Source of the DNA: Bradyrhizobium sp. CCBAU 53338
GTDB taxonomy: Bacteria; Pseudomonadota; Alphaproteobacteria; Rhizobiales; Xanthobacteraceae
NCBI RefSeq assembly: GCF_015291665.1
Contig: NZ_CP030049.1
Location: forward strand, 558,001 to 622,000
DNA: 64,000 nucleotides
Direction: 5' to 3'
Shown here: piece after piece, positions 36,836 to 62,654 of the stretch
How positions within the stretch are numbered: position 1 is the first letter of the stretch
Layout: each line of letters starts with the position of its first letter
Position numbers and translations under genes: made by a program
Notes under the pieces: generated by a model
Databases searched by the model: none
The model's input: the letters and a program-made list of their open reading frames with translations, nothing else
What the model was told of the DNA's origin: nothing

Positions 36836-37131
36836 GTGGCGCGTTCCAGATTGCTTTGACGGCCGACGCTAATCGTAGACCGGTTCGGCTGACTTCTCCC
36901 TAGATTTGAGCGGCTGTTTGGAAAACTCCAGCAGCGGAGTTTGCTGACTTGACCTCAGCAACTTGACGCGCCCGCTACGGGCTCACAGGCGCGCTGGGCC
37001 CCATTCTGCGTTCGAAGCGAGCCGACATTCTCGTCCACTTGAAAGTACGCCTCCGACGAGGACCGTCTTGCGTGACGGGTGGTAATTCGCGAAGCGTGTG
37101 ACCTTAAGTCTAGCTTTAAGGTCATCAGGCG

Positions 37132-37533
37132 ATGCGGGTCGAAGTTTTGGGCGGGCTTGAGCGGCGGCGGCGTTGGTCGCAGGACGACAAGGCACGGATT
37201 GTCGAGGAGACGCTAGTACCGGGCGCGAAGGTAACTGAAGTCGCGCGGCGCAACGGAGTAGCGGCCAGCCTGGTGTTTACCTGGCGTCGACAAGCACGGA
37301 CATCGGAACAAGTTGCACCATCTTTTACGCCGGTGCAGATCGCCGCCGTAGCGGCCTCGGCTGAAGAAACTGCGAAGCTTTTGCCTACGGTTGATGGCCG
37401 AGTTCGCTCGGCGGCAGCCGCACGTACTGGATTGATAGAGATCGATCTCGGCAACCGACGGTGCATCCGGGTGGATGCGCACGTCGATCCGGAGGCGCTG
37501 GCGCGGGTCCTCGATGTGCTTGGACGCCGATGA
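37132..37533 (+). CDS. tnpA: IS66 TnpA (OrfA)
   Basis: 133 residues with an N-terminal helix-turn-helix of transposase type (RRWSQDDKARIVEETLVPGA, VARRNGVAASLVFTWRRQ) and the C-terminal stretch RCIRVDAHVDPEALARVLDVL typical for IS66 OrfA. It probably helps TnpC bind the ends. Its stop codon overlaps the tnpB start (ATGA). Confidence 0.92.
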   Translation: MRVEVLGGLERRRRWSQDDKARIVEETLVPGAKVTEVARRNGVAASLVFTWRRQARTSEQVAPSFTPVQIAAVAASAEETAKLLPTVDGRVRSAAAARTGLIEIDLGNRRCIRVDAHVDPEALARVLDVLGRR

Positions 37534-39764
37534 TTGCTGTACCAGGGAATGTGCGAGTGTGGCTGGCGACAGGCTACACGGATATGCGCAGAGGCTTCCT
37601 GTCGCTGGCCCTCCAAGTTCAGGAGGTGCTGCGCAAAGAACCGCTCAGCGGTCATTTGTTCGTCTTCCGCGGTCGCCGCAGCGATCTTGTGAAGGTGATC
37701 TGGCACGGTGTGCTGCAGAGCATGAAGGAGGTGAATAACCGAATTTGATGCGTACAGCTTTATGAGAGATGGAGGACGGCCCTCCTGCATCGGCGTTCCA
37801 GGCGCAGGTGCAAAACCACGACACTGTGGCTTCGTTTAAAAGGCGCGGTCATCAGCAAGTGTTGCAAAAGTCCCGGGTTTACGGGGCAGGTAAGTATCCA
37901 GAAGGCGAGCGAAAGCAAATCTTCCGATGACGCGTCGAAAATTACTAAGGCGTCGCCAAAATCAGGGGCGCGTGCCATCCCTGAGATCAATCCGTGAGAC
38001 GCCTGGATTACTGCGCGGATGGCGACCGGCGTTTAGGGGACGCGATCTGGATACAGGCTCTTGTAGAGAACTGCAGGAACCAGTCGTTGTGATGCCAAGG
38101 GAGAAGTTCAAGCGGCACACACCGCGAGACGAGAGTACCGAAGCACAACACTGGGGCGGATCGGCTCGTAGTAGTGATGAAGGTGCTGTAATGGAACTGG
38201 AGCGAAGGGGCCGAAACAAGTGGGTTGCGCCCATATGCAACTGTGATGAGCAGGAGGACATGTGAGTGTAACCGGACGTAAGCAGTACGATATCGACAAG
38301 CAGACAGTGATGAAGGCCTACAAACTGGTCAAAGCCAATGCGGGCGCGGCCGGCGTGGATAAGGTATCGCTCGAAGCTTTTGAGAAGGACTTCAAGGGCA
38401 ACCTTTACAAGGTCTGGAATCGAATGTCTTCTGGCAGCTACTTTCCACCTGCCGTTCGGGCTGTCCCCATTCCCAAGAAGAACGGCGGACAACGCATTCT
38501 AGGCGTGCCGACAGTAGCAGATCGCGTGGCGCAGACGGTCGTCAAGCTTCAGATTGAACAAGTACTCGAGAAAATCTTCCTTCCCGATTCCTACGGCTAC
38601 CGGCCCGGAAAAGCCGCGCTGGACGCCGTCGGCATCACCCGGCAACGGTGCTGGAAGATGGACTGGGTGCTGGAGTTCGACATCAAAGGCCTGTTCGACA
38701 ATATCAGCCACCAGTTGCTTATGAAAGCCGTCAGGAAGCATGTGCAAGACGAATGGGCTCTGCTCTACATCGAACGCTGGCTAACAGCGCCGATGCAAGG
38801 CAAAGACGGAGCGATCACCGCTCGCGACCGGGGTACACCCCAAGGCGGCGTGATCAGTCCCGTCCTTGCCAATTTGTTCTTGCATTATGCGTTCGATATA
38901 TGGATGGCGCGAAACTTCCCGCAGTCACCGTGGTGTCGATACGCGGACGACGGGCTCGTACATTGCCGAACCAAGGCTGAAGCGGAAGCCATCAAGGCGG
39001 CGCTGCAGGCGAGGTTCAGGGAATGCGAACTCGAAATGCATCCCGACAAGACCAAGATCGTCTACTGCAAAGATAGCAATCGCCCGGGTAGCCATGCCAG
39101 TCAGTCATTTGACTTTCTGGGATTTACCTTTCGACCGCGCAGGGCAAGAAACCATCAGAAGAAAGAAAACTTCTGTACGTTCTCGCCAGCGGTCAGCAGG
39201 GCGGCAATGAAGTCTATGCGGATGACGATCCGGCAGCTCCGGCTCAGGCTTCGCTCGCAGACGGAAATCGACGCAATCGCCTTGGAACTGAACCCCGTCC
39301 TTCGTGGATGGATGCAGTACTACGGCAGATATGGGCGGTCAGAAATGCATAACCTGTATCGATACGTCGACGAATCTCTAAACCGCTGGGCGCGACGCAA
39401 ATACAAAGGGCTGAAGAATGGAAAAGTCAGGGCCTCCACCAGGCTCAGGCTGATCCGCTGCCGTAGGCCGAAGCTGTTCGCTCATTGGACGATGTTAGGT
39501 TCTGCTTCGTTACTTGTTGAGAGCCGTATGACGTGAGAGCGTCACGTACGGTTCGGAGAGCGGCTCCGGGTGCAACTCCCGGGGCCGACTCACCATGGCC
39601 AGGGAGCATGCCTGTTCACTAAGAGACTTGAGAGAGGAAGGTTCGTCTGGCCATCGGTTGCGGGCGAAGCGGTGACGATCTCATCGGCTCAGATGAGCTA
39701 CCTGTTGTCCGGAATCGATTGGCGCAACCCTCAAGAAACTCATCGTCCGACGCGTGTCGGATAG
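37530..39764 (+). CDS. tnpB: IS66 TnpB (OrfB), split by group II intron 1
   Basis: Exon 1 is 37530-37707 (MIAVPGNVRVWLATGYTDMRRG to DLVKVIWH) and exon 2 is 39595-39764 (DGQGACLFTKRLERGRFVW to the end). Joined they give 348 bases, 115 codons plus stop, the usual TnpB length, and the conserved VIWHDGQGACLF is rebuilt exactly. TnpB is needed for IS66 movement although its role is poorly known. Without intron splicing the protein would stop inside the intron at 37746-37748. Confidence 0.88.
37708..39594 (+). ncRNA. Group II intron 1, inserted in tnpB
   Basis: Starts GTGTG, matching the group II 5' consensus GUGYG. It contains a reverse transcriptase/maturase gene and ends with domain V at 39521-39554 (GAGCCG... 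GTACGGTTC hairpin) and a domain VI-like stem before ACTCACC. The boundaries are fixed by the tnpB reading frame to within one base; a shift by one base would give the more usual AY 3' end. It is 1887 bp, and its termini resemble those of intron 2 (CTGCAGA near the start, ACTCACC at the end). Confidence 0.85.
38262..39536 (+). CDS. ltrA: Group II intron reverse transcriptase/maturase (intron 1)
   Basis: 424 residues, GTG start after GGAGGACAT. RT motifs in order: GAAGVDKVSLEAFEKD (0), IPKKNGGQRILGVPTVADR (1-2), SYGYRPGKAALDAV (2), LEFDIKGLFDNI (3, with catalytic Asp), RGTPQGGVISPVLANLFLHY (4), CRYADDGLVHC (5, YADD intact), and a maturase X domain (ELNPVLRGWMQYYGRY). No HNH endonuclease domain follows. 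The protein assists splicing and makes cDNA during mobility. It is closely similar throughout to the intron 2 protein. Confidence 0.93.
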   Translation: MSVTGRKQYDIDKQTVMKAYKLVKANAGAAGVDKVSLEAFEKDFKGNLYKVWNRMSSGSYFPPAVRAVPIPKKNGGQRILGVPTVADRVAQTVVKLQIEQVLEKIFLPDSYGYRPGKAALDAVGITRQRCWKMDWVLEFDIKGLFDNISHQLLMKAVRKHVQDEWALLYIERWLTAPMQGKDGAITARDRGTPQGGVISPVLANLFLHYAFDIWMARNFPQSPWCRYADDGLVHCRTKAEAEAIKAALQARFRECELEMHPDKTKIVYCKDSNRPGSHASQSFDFLGFTFRPRRARNHQKKENFCTFSPAVSRAAMKSMRMTIRQLRLRLRSQTEIDAIALELNPVLRGWMQYYGRYGRSEMHNLYRYVDESLNRWARRKYKGLKNGKVRASTRLRLIRCRRPKLFAHWTMLGSASLLVESRMT

Positions 39765-39809
39765 CCGTTTTTGGTTTGAATCTGCGGCTTGATCTGATTC
39801 AATGGCTTC

Positions 39810-42800
39810 ATGACATCGAAGCCGGACGATCTTCCGTCGGATCTCGCGAGCGCCTACCTTGCGCTGCTGGCCGAGCGCGAGGCGTTGCAGGCTGAACGCG
39901 ATGTGGCAGTCGCGGATGCCGCCAACGCGCGGGCGGAGCTGTCGGACAGCGAGGTGCTGATCGCTCATCTTGAGCTACGGATCGAGAAGCTCAAACGCGA
40001 ACTGCACGGGCTGCGCTCCGAGCGCACGGCGCGGCTACTCGAGCAGTTGGAATTGGAGCTCGAAGAACTCGCCACCACGGCGACCGAGAATGAGCTGGCT
40101 GCGCAGGCTGCCGCCGCAAAAACCCAGAGCGTAAGCGCCTTCACGCGTAAGCGGCCGGTGCGCAAGCCGTGGCCGGACGACATCGAACGTGAGCGCGTCG
40201 TTATCGAGGCTCCAACGACCTGCGCCTGCTGCGGTGGATCGCGCCTTGCGAAGCTAGGCGAGGATGTGACCAAGACGCTGGAGGAGATTCCGCGTCGCTT
40301 TAAGGTCATCGAGACGGTACGCGAGAAGTTCACCTGCCGTGATTGCGAGAAGATAAGCCAGCCGCCGGCACCGTTCCATGCCACGCCGCGCGGCTTCATC
40401 GGTCCGCAATTGCTGGCGACAATGCTGTTCGACAAGTTCGGCATGCATATCCCGCTCAATCGCCAGAGCGTGCGCTTCAAGGCTGAGCGGATCGACCTGC
40501 CGCTGTCGACGCTGGCCGACCAGGTCGGCCACGGAACCTTCGCCGTCATGCCGTTGTTCCAGCTGATTGAGCGCCATGTCCTCGCCGCCGAGCGGCTGCA
40601 CGGCGATGACAGTGTTCTGCAGAAGCACACAGAAAGGATGATCAAAATGATCTGAAAATCTGTGCGCGCAAGCTGTGGCAGCGATGAGGGTAGGCCCCTC
40701 GGGATCGACTTTCAGGAGTAGGTCTCAAATCACTTCAAGCGGCTTCGCTTAAGAGGCGCGGTCGTGAGCGTTGAAGCTAACGGTCGGGGGAGACCCGAAC
40801 GGATACGCGTCCGAGAGACGAATGAAAATGAACCCGCCGATGAACCGTCGTAACGTGGAAATCGTCGTCAAAACCAGAGGTGTGTCGTCCCTCTGGGATG
40901 AGCCCGCCGGGAGCCTGATGACCGGGCGGGCGGCGACCGGCGTTGAGGGGGCGTGAATCGGATGCAGGCGCTGCCGCGGAACTGCAGGAACCAGTCGCTC
41001 CGATGGAAAGGGAGAAGCACAAGCGGAGAAGACCGCGAGGCGAGATTACCGACGCGGAGCACTGGGACGGACCGATCCGTATTAGCGACGAAGGCTCGTA
41101 ATGGGGCCGGAGCGAAGGGATCGGATCAGGTGGGCTGGCCATCGTCGCAACTGGCAACAGGAGGACGTCGATGAACCAGCCGAGCAAGCCGTTCAACATC
41201 GACAAGAGAGAGGTGTACGAAGCATATCTGCAGGTGCGATCCAATGGTGGCGCAGCCGGTGTCGACGGAGTGACGATTGAGCAGTTCGAGTCCGACTTGA
41301 AGGGAAATCTCTACAAGATTTGGAATCGAATGAGTTCAGGCGCTTACTTCCCGCCGCCTGTTCGGGCTGTCTCCATTCCAAAGAAGAGTGGAGGCCAGAG
41401 GATCCTCGGGGTGCCCACCGTGGCGGACCGCGTGGCACAGACAGTTGTTAAACAACTGATTGAGCCGGCTCTTGACGCAATCTTTCTGGCGGATTCCTAT
41501 GGCTACAGACCCGGAAAATCGGCTCTCGATGCCGTAGGCGTCACGCGACAGCGGTGCTGGAAGTATGATTGGTTTCTAGAGTTCGACATCAAAGGATTGT
41601 TCGACAATATCGACCACGAGTTGTTGCTACGGGCCGTCCGGAAACATGTGACGTGCGCATGGGCGCTGCTCTACATCGAACGATGGCTGACAGCGCCGAT
41701 GGTGCAAGAGGATGGAACGATAATCGAGCGAAGCCGCGGCACCCCACAAGGGGGCGTGGTGAGCCCGATCCTCGCCAACCTCTTCATGCACTATGCATTT
41801 GATCTCTGGATGGCGCGGACGTTCCCCGATCTCAGGTGGTGTCGGTATGCGGATGACGGGTTGGTACATTATCGGAATGAGATGGAGGCGCAAAGCGTTC
41901 GCGAAGCGCTCCAGGCTCGGCTGGCGGAGTGCCATCTGGAATTGCATCCTACGAAGACGAGGATCGTCTACTGCAAGGATGATCGACGCCGAGGTAAAAG
42001 CGAGACGGTCATGTTTGACTTTCTCGGTTATTGCTTCCGGCCACGATCGGTCCTGGGGCCGCATTCGCAGAAGATGTTCTGTGGGTTCACCCCGGCGGTC
42101 AGCAAACCAGCGCTGAACGCCATGCGGGCGAAGGTCCGAGGCTTGAAACTTCGCAGGCGAGCCGAGGTGACGCTGGACGATATTGCTCGCGAGCTAAACC
42201 CGATGGTTAGGGGGTGGATCGCTTATTATGGGCAATACACCCGCTCAGCGCTTTATCCGCTGGCGCGCTACATCAACCAGACGTTAGGTATTTGGTTGAA
42301 GCGAAAGTACAAGCGCTTCCATCACCGTTTAGGACGCGCGCGTCTCTTCCTGGAGAAGATCGCGCGTGAGAACCGCAGGCTCTTTGTGCATTGGCAACTC
42401 GGCGATGGCGGCAAGATTGCCTGATGGGAGCCGGGTGAGGCGAGAGTCTCACGCCCGGTTCTGCGAGAGGCTGGAGGTGAAATCCCTCCGGCCTACTCAC
42501 CCCACCATCCGGATCCTGGCGAAGGGCAAATGCACGACCGGCCGGATCTGGACGTATGTGCGGGATGACCGGCCGTTCGCCGGGCCTGCGCCGCCGGCGG
42601 CGGTCTATTATGCCTCGGGCAACCGACGGGGCGAACATCCTCAGAGGCATCTGGCCGCCTTCGCCGGCATTCTGCAGGCGGATTGCTATGGCGGCTTCGA
42701 GCCGTTGTTCGATCCAAAAAGGAAAGCAATGCCGATCACGCCGGCATTTTGCCTGGCCCATGCGCGGCGGGGATTCTTCGAGCTGGCTGACATCGAGAAA

Positions 42801-43361
42801 GCCGCCCGGGAAGGCAAGGGCAAACCGGTCTCCCCGATCGCGCTGGAGGCGGTCAGGCGTCTTGACGCCCTGTTCGAGATCGAGCGCGCCATCAACGGCC
42901 GTGGTGCCGACGAGCGGCGTGCTGTGCGCCAGGAGCGGAGCAAGCCGCTGCTCGACGACATGCACGCCTGGCTGCTCCGCGAGCGAGAAAGCCTCTCCCG
43001 CTCCGCCGAGGTCCTGAAGCCCATGAACTACATGCTCAAGCGCTGGGACGACTTCGTCCGCTTCCTCGACGATGGCAGGATCTGCTTGACCAACAATTGC
43101 GCTGAGCGTGCATTGAGAGGCATTGCCTTGGGAAGGCGCAACTGGACCTTCGCTGGCAGCCAACGTGGCGCCGACCGTGCCGCTATCATGCTGACGATGA
43201 TCACGACCTGTCGCCTCAACGACGTCGATCCCAAGGCTTGGCTCGCCGACGTCCTCGCCCGGATCGCCGATCTTCCCACCTCGCGTCTGCGCGAACTGCT
43301 GCCCTGGGAATGGAAGCTCCTGCACCAAGCCGGCAAGTCCGCCGATCAGCAAGCCGCCTGA
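39810..43361 (+). CDS. tnpC: IS66 TnpC transposase, split by group II intron 2
   Basis: Exon 1 is 39810-40611 and exon 2 is 42502-43361; joined they give 1662 bases, 553 codons plus stop, in frame. Exon 1 has the long helical leader, the zinc-finger-like CACCGGSRLAKLGEDVT region and ends ...ERLHGDD. Exon 2 resumes TTIRILAKGKCTTGRIWTY, then HARRGFFELADIEKAA, LTNNCAERALRGIALGRRNW and the C-terminal LRELLPWEW. This is the catalytic DDE protein of IS66 elements. The intron lies directly at the second half of the HGDDTT motif. No stop codons or frameshifts are seen in the exons. Confidence 0.88.
40612..42501 (+). ncRNA. Group II intron 2, inserted in tnpC
   Basis: 1890 bp starting GTGTT and ending ACTCACC, with domain V at 42428-42461 (GAGCCGGGTG... 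CGCCCGGTTC). It encodes its own reverse transcriptase. The 5' and 3' ends resemble intron 1. The boundary is set by the tnpC frame to within one base. Confidence 0.85.
41171..42424 (+). CDS. ltrA: Group II intron reverse transcriptase/maturase (intron 2)
   Basis: 417 residues, ATG with CAGGAGG eight bases upstream. All RT blocks are intact: GAAGVDGVTIEQFESD, IPKKSGGQRILGVPTVADR, LEFDIKGLFDNIDHE, RGTPQGGVVSPILANLF, CRYADDGLVHY, and maturase domain ELNPMVRGWIAYYGQY. No endonuclease domain. It is a paralogue of the intron 1 protein, differing mainly in the last 60 residues, so the two introns probably share a recent ancestor but are not fresh copies of each other. Confidence 0.93.
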   Translation: MNQPSKPFNIDKREVYEAYLQVRSNGGAAGVDGVTIEQFESDLKGNLYKIWNRMSSGAYFPPPVRAVSIPKKSGGQRILGVPTVADRVAQTVVKQLIEPALDAIFLADSYGYRPGKSALDAVGVTRQRCWKYDWFLEFDIKGLFDNIDHELLLRAVRKHVTCAWALLYIERWLTAPMVQEDGTIIERSRGTPQGGVVSPILANLFMHYAFDLWMARTFPDLRWCRYADDGLVHYRNEMEAQSVREALQARLAECHLELHPTKTRIVYCKDDRRRGKSETVMFDFLGYCFRPRSVLGPHSQKMFCGFTPAVSKPALNAMRAKVRGLKLRRRAEVTLDDIARELNPMVRGWIAYYGQYTRSALYPLARYINQTLGIWLKRKYKRFHHRLGRARLFLEKIARENRRLFVHWQLGDGGKIA

Positions 43362-43579
43362 CCTTCACGCAACGCCATCGTAGAACTCGCCGTGCTCGCG
43401 CGCATGCGTCAATCAGGCGGCCTTCGTCGTATGCGTACACTTGAAAAGCCCGCGCGCACGTAGCTCGAACTTCGGGAGGAGGCTACCCAATCTTACCCAC
43501 TTAGACGCTTTGCGGTCTTATACGCCGATCCCGCTCGGTCTAGACCTCGCGTTGGTCAGAATGATCTAGGAGAAAAATC

Positions 43580-60985: not shown

Positions 60986-61145
60986 CGCTTGCCTCCATCG
61001 CCAGGTCGTCCGGGAGCAGGCGTGCAATGAGGCGCGCCAGAATCTCGATTGCCGCCATGCGGGCGGCTTCGTCGATTTGGTCCCACGCTGCTGGCGCGCT
61101 TGGTGGAACATCGGGCTGATCGAAAAACTCCAGGTTCAATTGCAT
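60978..61145 (-). CDS. Small accessory protein of the serine-recombinase element
   Basis: 55 residues, ATG at 61145. MQLNLEFFDQPDVPP, AARMAAIEILARLIARLL and an acidic tail. It overlaps the recombinase start by eight bases. I recall small proteins of this kind regularly standing in front of such recombinases; their function is not known. Confidence 0.55.
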   Translation of the reverse strand: MQLNLEFFDQPDVPPSAPAAWDQIDEAARMAAIEILARLIARLLPDDLAMEASDE

Positions 61146-61434
61146 GGCGACTCTCCTTGCACGGCGCCGACTCGGCACCCCCGATGCAAAGAGCGTCGAC
61201 GAGCTTGCGCAAGTGGAGCAAATCACCGAGCCTGCCGAGATCGTGGACAGCGTCATCGGTCGGCGGCGTGCCTCCAAGCGGCTCAACCTTCCAATCGGTC
61301 CAACTCGCCGGAATCAACGACCGACTGCCATCTGGCAGAACTGTGAGGAGATAGCGGACGCCGCGCCGCCTAATGGTGCCGATCACGGCCAACGCCTGAC
61401 CTTCGAATGCGTGACGCTTGCGCGTGATCGTCAC
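60982..61434 (-). CDS. DUF5372-like accessory protein of the serine-recombinase element
   Basis: GTG start at 61434: MTITRKRHAFEGQALAVIG, GVRYLLTVLPDGSRSLIPASW, DLGRLGDLLHLRKLVDALC. It matches the small proteins found next to these recombinases. The last 50 codons overlap the next two genes and read poorly, so the true end may be near 61130 with a frameshift. Confidence 0.55.
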   Translation of the reverse strand: MTITRKRHAFEGQALAVIGTIRRRGVRYLLTVLPDGSRSLIPASWTDWKVEPLGGTPPTDDAVHDLGRLGDLLHLRKLVDALCIGGAESAPCKESRHAIEPGVFRSARCSTKRASSVGPNRRSRPHGGNRDSGAPHCTPAPGRPGDGGKR

Positions 61435-61472
61435 CGAAGCTGGGATATCATGGCGATGGGTAGTGTGTGGCC

Positions 61473-62301
61473 GCTTCCTTCGACTCGGTCGACCACGAGT
61501 GGCTGTTGCGGATGCTGGCGCACAGGATCGCCGATCCTCGCATTCTACGGCTCATTGGGCTGTGGCTGCGGGCCGGTGTTCTGGAGAGCAGCGAGAAGCA
61601 AGAAACGGACAGGGGTACTCCGCAAGGGGCGGGCATCAGCCCGCTCCTCGCCAACGTCTTCCTGCACTACGTCCTCGATCTCTGGGCCCACCAATGGCGC
61701 CGTCGCCATGCACGCGGTCGCACCGTGCGCTATGCCCGACGACTTCGTCATGGGCTTCGAGAGTAAGGCGGATGCGCAGGAGATGCTCTTGGCCCTCAAG
61801 GTGCGGCTGGCCAGCTTTGGCCTGATGCTTCATGAGGGCAAGACGCGGCTGATCGAGTTTGGCCGGTTTGAGGCCCTCTCGCGTCAGCGGCGCGGCGAGC
61901 GGCGGCCCGAGACCTTCGCCTTCCTCGGCTTCACCCACTACTGCGGGCGGACCCGGGACGGCCGGTTCATGGTGAAGCACAAGACGGACGGGAAACGCCT
62001 GACGCGCAAGCTGACGGCGTTGCGCCAGGACGCCTGGCGGCTCATGCACGAGTCACTGGCCACGCAGCACCAGTGGTTCGCCGCTGTTCTGCGTGGACAC
62101 TACGGCTACTACGGCAGGCCGCACAATTATCCAGCGCTCAACGGCTTCTACCGCGAAGTGCGTCGGACGTGGATGCGCTGTCTGAGACGGCGTAGCCAGA
62201 AAAGTCGGCGCATGGGCTGGTCGGAGTTCGAGACCCTGACGACACACTTCCGTCTGCCCGGTCCGGGCATCACTCGCACTTGGGCGCAGGCGCGGATATG
62301 A
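61473..62301 (+). pseudogene. ltrA: 5'-truncated, frameshifted group II intron reverse transcriptase
   Basis: The gene enters at DSVDHEWLLRMLAHRIADP (RT block 3), then RGTPQGAGISPLLANVFLHY. The YADD box is broken: an extra C gives YARRLRH in one frame and DDFVMGFESKADAQEML in the other (at about 61735). The rest, including the LGFTHYCGRTRDGRF part and maturase-like end, is open to 62301. Domain V follows at 62321-62354. The protein belongs to another intron class than the two in IS66. Its front was lost where the recombinase element joins. Confidence 0.85.
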
Positions 62302-62320
62302 CGCGGGTTACTCTCGGGAA

Positions 62321-62354
62321 GAGCCGGGTGCGGGAAAGCCGCCTGCCCGGATCT
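62321..62354 (+). ncRNA. Domain V of the truncated third group II intron
   Basis: A 34-base hairpin starting GAGCCGGGTGCGGGAAA and closing with CCTGCCCGGAT, the standard bacterial domain V with a GAAA-type loop. It lies 20 bp after the RT stop. Confidence 0.75.
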
Positions 62355-62654
62355 GTGAGGGCGAAAGCCAAATGGCTGAGCTACTCGACCACGATCCAAA
62401 CAGGCCAAGTAAGATCTCGATCTAGAGCCTGTTGTTTCTCCCGAATCGACATCGTCAGAGGGGAATTGTCTGATTTAATCCTATGCTGAGGAGGAGCGAG
62501 CTTGGATGATGCAACTCTATTCGGAAGGTCCTCGCCCTAGCGGAGGCGAGGCCTGTTCGTTACGGCGCTCATCAACCGGTTCCGAGGCATGGCGCCGAAA
62601 CTGTACTCGCTGACCAGCACCGCGCAGCAGCAGGTCCCTTCCATTTATAGGCTG

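Follow-up and report, generated by a model that had tools for sequence, protein, structure and literature searches.

How does a single bacterial transposon come to carry two group II introns, each inserted in a transposase gene, and does the transposon spread the introns or do the introns live off the transposon? This question is raised by an IS66 family element (37045-43438, 6394 bp) that lies within a 64,000-nucleotide stretch (hereafter, the window; contig NZ_CP030049.1, positions 558,001 to 622,000) of a symbiosis plasmid of the peanut root-nodule bacterium Bradyrhizobium guangdongense. The answer to which we assign a probability of roughly 80% is that the two introns, I1 in tnpB and I2 in tnpC, represent two separate site-specific lineages that would copy themselves from one IS66 element to another, and that this element, one of a group of related elements denoted type A, received both of them along with one-sided tracts of foreign exon sequence. 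It is probably the introns that travel, with the transposon copy seen here left as their stranded host. The layout of the element is as follows.

37037..37044, left target duplication, ACTTGAAA
37045..37065, plus strand, left terminal inverted repeat, 17 of 21 bases matching the right end
37132..37533, plus strand, tnpA, 133 amino acids, HTH_Tnp_1 domain
37530..37707, plus strand, 5' exon of tnpB
37708..39594, plus strand, group II intron I1 in tnpB, 1887 nt, GTGTG...CACC
39595..39764, plus strand, 3' exon of tnpB with the stop codon
39810..40611, plus strand, 5' exon of tnpC
40612..42501, plus strand, group II intron I2 in tnpC, 1890 nt, GTGTT...CACC
42502..43361, plus strand, 3' exon of tnpC with the stop codon
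43418..43438, minus strand, right terminal inverted repeat
43439..43446, right target duplication, ACTTGAAA

The gene order tnpA-tnpB-tnpC with the respective IS66 domains, the terminal inverted repeats and the 8-bp target duplication, the latter two already recognized in the initial annotation of this DNA, place the element in the IS66 family, for one member of which, IS679, all three proteins, TnpA, TnpB and TnpC, are reportedly required for transposition. In silico removal of both introns at the boundaries proposed in that annotation yields a TnpB of 115 amino acids (ATG at 37530, stop codon ending at 39764) that contains VIWHDGQGACLF, and a TnpC of 553 amino acids that contains HGDDTT. The restored TnpB covers positions 2-100 of the 101 of the Pfam model TnpB_IS66 (1e-37), and the restored TnpC positions 2-283 of the 284 of DDE_Tnp_IS66 (7e-80), so that both the boundaries and the frame-restoring excision hold. 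The exon junctions of I1 and I2 are identical in intronless relatives, the very place where the absence of the rebuilt motifs had been named as a possible refutation; chance open frames are ruled out as an explanation because exactly these junctions recur in copies that lack introns, that of strain 62B among them. The 62B element, although free of introns, has a recombinase-family gene inserted into the 3' part of its tnpB (L026, CP092842.1, ~610376-612442).

In both introns, the 5' part (domain I) is recognized by the Rfam covariance model RF01999 above the curated cut-off (I1, 37771-37891, 76.2 bits; I2, 40686-40803, 98.2 bits), and the same applies to RF00029, which delimits domain V/VI. 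Each intron also encodes an intron-encoded protein (IEP).

38262..39536, plus strand, IEP of I1, 424 amino acids, RVT_1 and GIIM
39519..39594, plus strand, domain V/VI of I1, RF00029, 56.4 bits
41171..42424, plus strand, IEP of I2, 417 amino acids, RVT_1 and GIIM
42426..42501, plus strand, domain V/VI of I2, RF00029, 60.3 bits

With TIGR04416 scores of 419.9 and 408.4 bits for I1 and I2, respectively (cut-off 300), the IEPs are identified as reverse transcriptases/maturases, and the open frames, the two Pfam domains and RF00029 bear out the reverse transcriptases and the domains V that had been described. A Pfam search at E 0.001 gives RVT_1 and GIIM alone, with no endonuclease domain in either protein. 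Between the IEPs of I1 and I2, the identity is 61%, and the I1 protein shows the same value, over the whole length, against the IEP of a 1885-nt intron from Sinorhizobium meliloti (L030), an intron that is taken to be RmInt1-like because of its exon-binding site 1 (EBS1) and its length. The earlier statement that the two introns share their ends and protein sequence is thus correct for the 3' end (ACTCACC in both), whereas the starts differ (GTGTG in I1, GTGTT in I2) and the proteins are identical at only 61% of positions. Taken together, I1 and I2 are best classified as two separate lineages of RmInt1-like (class D) endonuclease-less group II introns. Derivation of one from the other within this element is rejected, each being far closer to same-site copies elsewhere. 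On two Bradyrhizobium plasmids (L022 and L023), I1 is broken by IS256-family elements at two different points.

The distribution of the same-site copies is the main evidence of independent spread. In a survey of 145 Bradyrhizobium genomes, in which at most four of the best candidates per genome were scored so that the counts are lower bounds, no fewer than 8 genomes gave matches that span the exon-I1 boundary, with a match of 107 nt in a ninth (G094), and at least 15 gave matches across the exon-I2 boundary. Introns that are nearly the same as those of the window sit in IS66 elements with very different exons. For I2, the identity is 96.8% with exons at 68-72% (L098), 94.7% with exons at 67-75% (L099) and 94.6% with exons at 68-75% (L101), and a less close I2 is found in L100 (87.6%); for I1, it is 94.7% with exon segment E3 at 66.7% (L096) and 96.9% with the tnpB 5' exon at 69% (L095). 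The approximately unbiased (AU) test, with p-values that are optimistic for the reasons given below, rejects on the I2 data the exon clade of the window, G098, G143a and L148 (p 6.8e-5) and, on the exon data, a ten-row I2 clade (p 3.6e-4) and the pair of G143a and L148 (p 0.019).

A scan of named genomes, confined to the best 80 of 535 loci and drawing in part on the same genomes as the survey (e.g., L144, L146, L147, L153, L180, L181), shows a TnpB or TnpC match beside 17 of the 80. Thirteen of the loci have an I2-like IEP (82% or more), and in 12 of them TnpC is broken between HGDD and T on at least one side; the thirteenth (L218) has little flank and no TnpC match. TnpB is broken between H and DGQG in 5 of the 80. 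The hosts of the I2 loci include a Methylocystis metagenome-assembled genome (MAG), an Acidobacteriaceae MAG and a Rhizobium plasmid. Among the same 80 loci, the more distant IEPs have no IS66 of this kind adjoining. The recurrence of these sites across diverse hosts implies that each intron lineage is bound to one IS66 codon, in agreement with the initial annotation, which placed a pair of related introns at distinct motifs in genes essential to IS66; the states with no intron, one or both, for which a search had been suggested, all exist. The further suggestion that the transposon may be spreading the introns is not where the data point: what they show is, for the most part, independent movement of the introns from one IS66 element to another, diverged one.

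For the pairing between intron and exon, the following candidates were identified.

37971..37977, plus strand, EBS1 of I1 (CGTGCCA), pairing with TGGCACG at the exon end by 7 Watson-Crick pairs
38034, plus strand, likely EBS3 of I1 (T), its partner being A at 39595, column by RmInt1 analogy
40883..40889, plus strand, EBS1 of I2 (TGTCGTC), pairing with GATGACA at the exon end by 6 Watson-Crick pairs plus a G-U
40945, plus strand, likely EBS3 of I2 (G), its partner being C at 42502, column by RmInt1 analogy

With GACGACA, the sequence of the empty sites compared, the EBS1 of I2 would form seven pairs. The EBS1 of RmInt1 is given as UUUCGUC in PMC4238363; it is present in L030, in the same alignment columns as the EBS1 of I1 and I2. 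The likely pairs of EBS3 with intron-binding site 3 (IBS3) in I1, I2 and L030 are T-A, G-C and G-C, respectively, in a column of our choosing, one base past the published number as counted on L030, which is one base longer. Several candidate pairings exist for EBS2/IBS2, and none was picked. The EBS/IBS comparison called for earlier accordingly finds an EBS1 in homologous columns that suits each insertion site, and the matches of EBS1 and the likely EBS3 to both sites support introns that appear fitted to their targets. I1 would then be adapted to the HDGQG codons of tnpB and I2 to the HGDDT codons of tnpC, via EBS1 and probably EBS3, and each could copy from IS66 to IS66 even where the exons are only ~67-75% alike. 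Copying of this kind would let an intron persist whether or not a given IS66 still jumps.

The exons of the window element carry a second line of evidence, two tracts that directly abut the introns.

39595..39790, plus strand, foreign exon tract 3' of I1, ~196 nt, unlike type-A IS66 and like type-B
40563..40611, plus strand, foreign exon tract 5' of I2, matching two type-C elements at 48 of 49 bases

When the exons are compared with those of the 62B element, which has no intron, 48 of 2617 positions differ; 33 of these differences fall in the 197 nt directly 3' of I1, against 2 in the equal stretch on the opposite side. A further 8 lie within the 49 nt that adjoin I2 on its 5' side, with none opposite, and the difference elsewhere is 0.3%. 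The same dips are seen against other type-A elements (a grouping done by eye, in which six of ten possible members, L113-L116, L119 and L120, were assigned to type A and four, L117, L118, L121 and L122, were not): identity falls to 78-88% 3' of I1 compared with eight type-A elements and to 80-82% 5' of I2 compared with the seven that have data there, with adjoining stretches at 89-100%. The tract 3' of I1 is 95-98% identical to a type-B element of strain 62B and 88-97% to another (L112, L093), the type-B match reaching 96.8% over 216 nt. The tract 5' of I2 agrees at 48 of 49 positions with the type-C elements L135 and L136, against 38-41 of 49 for type-A elements; upstream of the tract, the exons of L135 and L136 are only 68-70% identical to the window, and L135 bears an I2-type intron at this very site.

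We read the tracts as the product of co-conversion upon intron arrival, via complementary DNA (cDNA) of unspliced RNA or recombination between copies. A type-A IS66 would have received I1 together with ~196 nt of type-B exon lying 3' of it, and I2 together with ~49 nt of type-C exon lying 5' of it. Since the tracts are one-sided, recombination or cDNA from unspliced RNA would have joined clean reverse splicing in the process. For the homing of RmInt1, the accessible part of PMC5010178 considers extension of the cDNA into the 5' exon and makes no mention of co-conversion.

The one-sided tracts are also what would be expected if the introns had arrived not by retrohoming but by gene conversion, in which IS66 copies within the same cell exchange DNA and one boundary of the exchanged segment falls in the intron; this scenario has a minor but appreciable probability. 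In its favour, the same plasmid holds a decayed IS66 (L007/L142, C2:900781-901908; exons 83-86%) with 420 nt from the start of I1, 99% identical and the nearest I1 to that of the window. Within I1, the 3' half is somewhat nearer to the type-B element G034 than to the type-A element G018 (35 and 47 differences, respectively), and the 5' 1000 nt are not (22 and 19). This weakly hints at a switch within the intron, which would favour recombination for I1; no clean switch point was seen within the introns in a windowed comparison. The same plasmid further holds a 5'-truncated copy with a different flank (L006, C2:210862-212084), comprising the last 286 nt of I2 (98.6%) and E3 (99.6%), and differs from the window at 4 of 286 positions in the intron and 4 of 937 in the exon (Fisher p 0.09). 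This copy and the main element of B. guangxiense (L031) diverge from the window at six common places and share the letter at four of them, a pattern that exchange between copies, or a mixed assembly, would leave and that likewise speaks for conversion; in B. guangxiense, a one-base gap is present near the end of the I2 IEP. Gene conversion, however, requires an intron-bearing donor and, alone, cannot yield nearly identical introns in exons of 67-75% identity; site-specific copying between IS66 elements remains the preferred explanation.

I1 and I2 occur together in three element lineages: that of the window, with the element shared by five plasmids counted as one; G170:C9; and the MAG contig L148, whose Acidobacteriaceae label is unsure because MAG contigs can be misbinned. 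In G170:C9, exon segment E2 is 85.6% identical to that of the window, I1 is cut and I2 is interrupted; its double state is considered separate because of the divergent exons alone. In L148, the identities are 87.9% for E2, 96.0% over 1087 nt for I1 and 87.8% for I2, and its I2 groups in the tree with that of G143a (support 100/100), not with that of the window, which indicates that its double state arose separately. Double occupancy in three lineages fits the proposal of repeated capture by the same element type.

The five peanut-nodule symbiosis plasmids share the element of the window in identical or nearly identical form, the copy on NZ_CP030058.1 being the same letter for letter. The 80-nt I2 junction is present in 6 of 264 Bradyrhizobium genomes, the window's own counted, and B. 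zhengyangense has it on a broken contig. The five plasmid records are not five separate cases: the element is the same, and the two whose neighbours were compared (H3 and H5) have common neighbours. These observations bear on the opposite view of the locus, a living IS66 that spreads both introns and whose jumping is governed by two splicing reactions. The intact frames, repeats and target duplication agree with it, as does the truncated copy L006 with its different flank elsewhere on the plasmid. This copy does not, however, prove a jump of an intron-bearing element, because it could equally be a sister IS66 into which I2 homed; given also that the introns sit in IS66 elements with very different exons, that the five records represent one insertion so far as compared, and that I2 has an aberrant GTGTT start, a living transposon as the vehicle is quite unlikely.

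Several points weigh against the interpretation in terms of two intron lineages that copy between IS66 elements. Splicing and retrohoming as the route are what we infer from sequence alone. The AU groups were picked post hoc from the trees, and two long branches (L170, G027) meet in the exon tree, hence the optimistic p-values; these tests cover I2 only, the I1 and exon trees containing exon rows that are short or cut (G018). The tract windows were fixed after the differences had been seen, and G018, a type-A element that bears I1, lacks the 3' tract, so that a tract is not always carried. A random 7-mer has some partner in a 550-nt intron in 37-38% of cases; EBS1 pairing is thus too weak as a standalone proof, and the case rests on its homologous position. 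Finally, indels or stops interrupt the IEP in 2 of 6 I1 and 9 of 11 I2 comparisons (3 of those 9 being partial stretches), which indicates that many intron copies are decaying.

Decay raises the possibility that the introns are dead passengers that neither splice nor move, and the element a fossil. Base 5 of I2 (40616) is T, whereas it is G in all 16 relatives with a readable start, 15 of which begin with GTGTG and one (G103) with ATGTG; intron base 5 matters for the 5' splice site. The start of I1 fits the GUGYG motif, and that of I2 departs from it. Among the best 80 named-genome loci, 25 have an anchored intron start, 24 of these with G at position 5, and the only exception, in B. zhengyangense, belongs to the same element as that of the window; a read error is unlikely because GTGTT is present in separately sequenced strains. 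The 3' splice site of I2 also forms a CCCC run, and I1 has neither this run nor the GTGTT start. According to PMC4238363, such a run is linked with unproductive splicing of RmInt1, for which correct exon ligation in vivo is below 1%. The GUGUU start and the CCCC run thus suggest that I2 probably splices poorly and that the copy in the window is probably impaired in transposition: tnpB is perhaps weakly spliced and tnpC hardly, the transposon being likely largely silenced. The initial conclusion that the element is potentially mobile only if both introns splice presumes that both can, which the GUGYG substitution in this I2 and the low figure for RmInt1 make questionable.

Complete death of the introns is nevertheless unlikely. 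The IEP frames of both introns are open in the window and differ from those of relatives mainly at silent sites. The ratios of nonsynonymous to synonymous substitution rates are 0.16-0.26 for I1 (6 comparisons) and 0.09-0.21 for I2 (11 comparisons), with some pairs being close kin, and these values indicate purifying selection on the IEPs. In addition, I1 retains its GTGTG start and domain V/VI, and both lineages show a wide type-specific spread, all of which is more compatible with introns that move between IS66 elements than with inert passengers.

A broader reading, which goes beyond this locus and is somewhat unlikely, would make IS66 a standing two-site host of paired endonuclease-less introns that spread with one-sided exon tracts (3' for I1, 5' for I2) via recombination or cDNA of unspliced RNA. 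If true, such tract-carrying spread would differ from the usual account of bacterial introns, in which reverse splicing is clean and complete.

Among the known systems, RmInt1 of S. meliloti, a class D (IIB3) intron, sits in ISRm2011-2, an insertion sequence (IS) of the IS630 family (PMC4238363, PMC5894124). I1 and I2 resemble RmInt1 in their nearly equal length (published positions run to 1884), IEPs of ~420 amino acids without an endonuclease, the same EBS1 columns, the CC at the 3' end and the location in a transposase gene, and I2 additionally shares the CCCC run. The differences are another IS family with other sites and two different introns per IS instead of one; the one-sided exon tracts and the GUGUU start of I2 are features of the present element. 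The idea that an intron restrains its host IS, which the initial annotation put forward as control of the transposon by the introns, has already been proposed for RmInt1 (PMC4238363, PMC5894124). In RmInt2/ISRm17, one IS likewise offers two target places to a class D intron, whereas here two different introns occupy two genes (PMC5894124). Bacterial twintrons similarly bring several group II introns to one mobile or non-essential locus (PMC4424553), but I1 and I2 are not nested and lie in two genes with 1017 nt of exon between them, so that a twintron is rejected. A title-level literature search, with subscription journals mostly outside its coverage, found no IS66 element named as carrying two group II introns. 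To this the present element adds a pair of specialist intron lineages that share an IS, their joint presence in three element lineages, and exon tracts of natural origin beside each intron.

Nature thereby offers an experiment on group II introns that live at the expense of transposons. IS66 elements with no intron, I1 only, I2 only or both can be compared for the burden of splicing, the restraint on transposition, the choice of target and the route by which the introns spread, and the exon tracts would be footprints of the natural route that are invisible to assays with identical exons.

Two further loci on the plasmid contain related sequences. Within the window, a third domain V (62319-62389, plus strand, 49.7 bits) lies behind an open reading frame of 385 amino acids (61144-62301) that resembles the remnant of an intron reverse transcriptase, although no Pfam family matched it at E 0.001. 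Another related intron (L008, C2:51477-52829) is 73% identical to I2 over the matched stretch.
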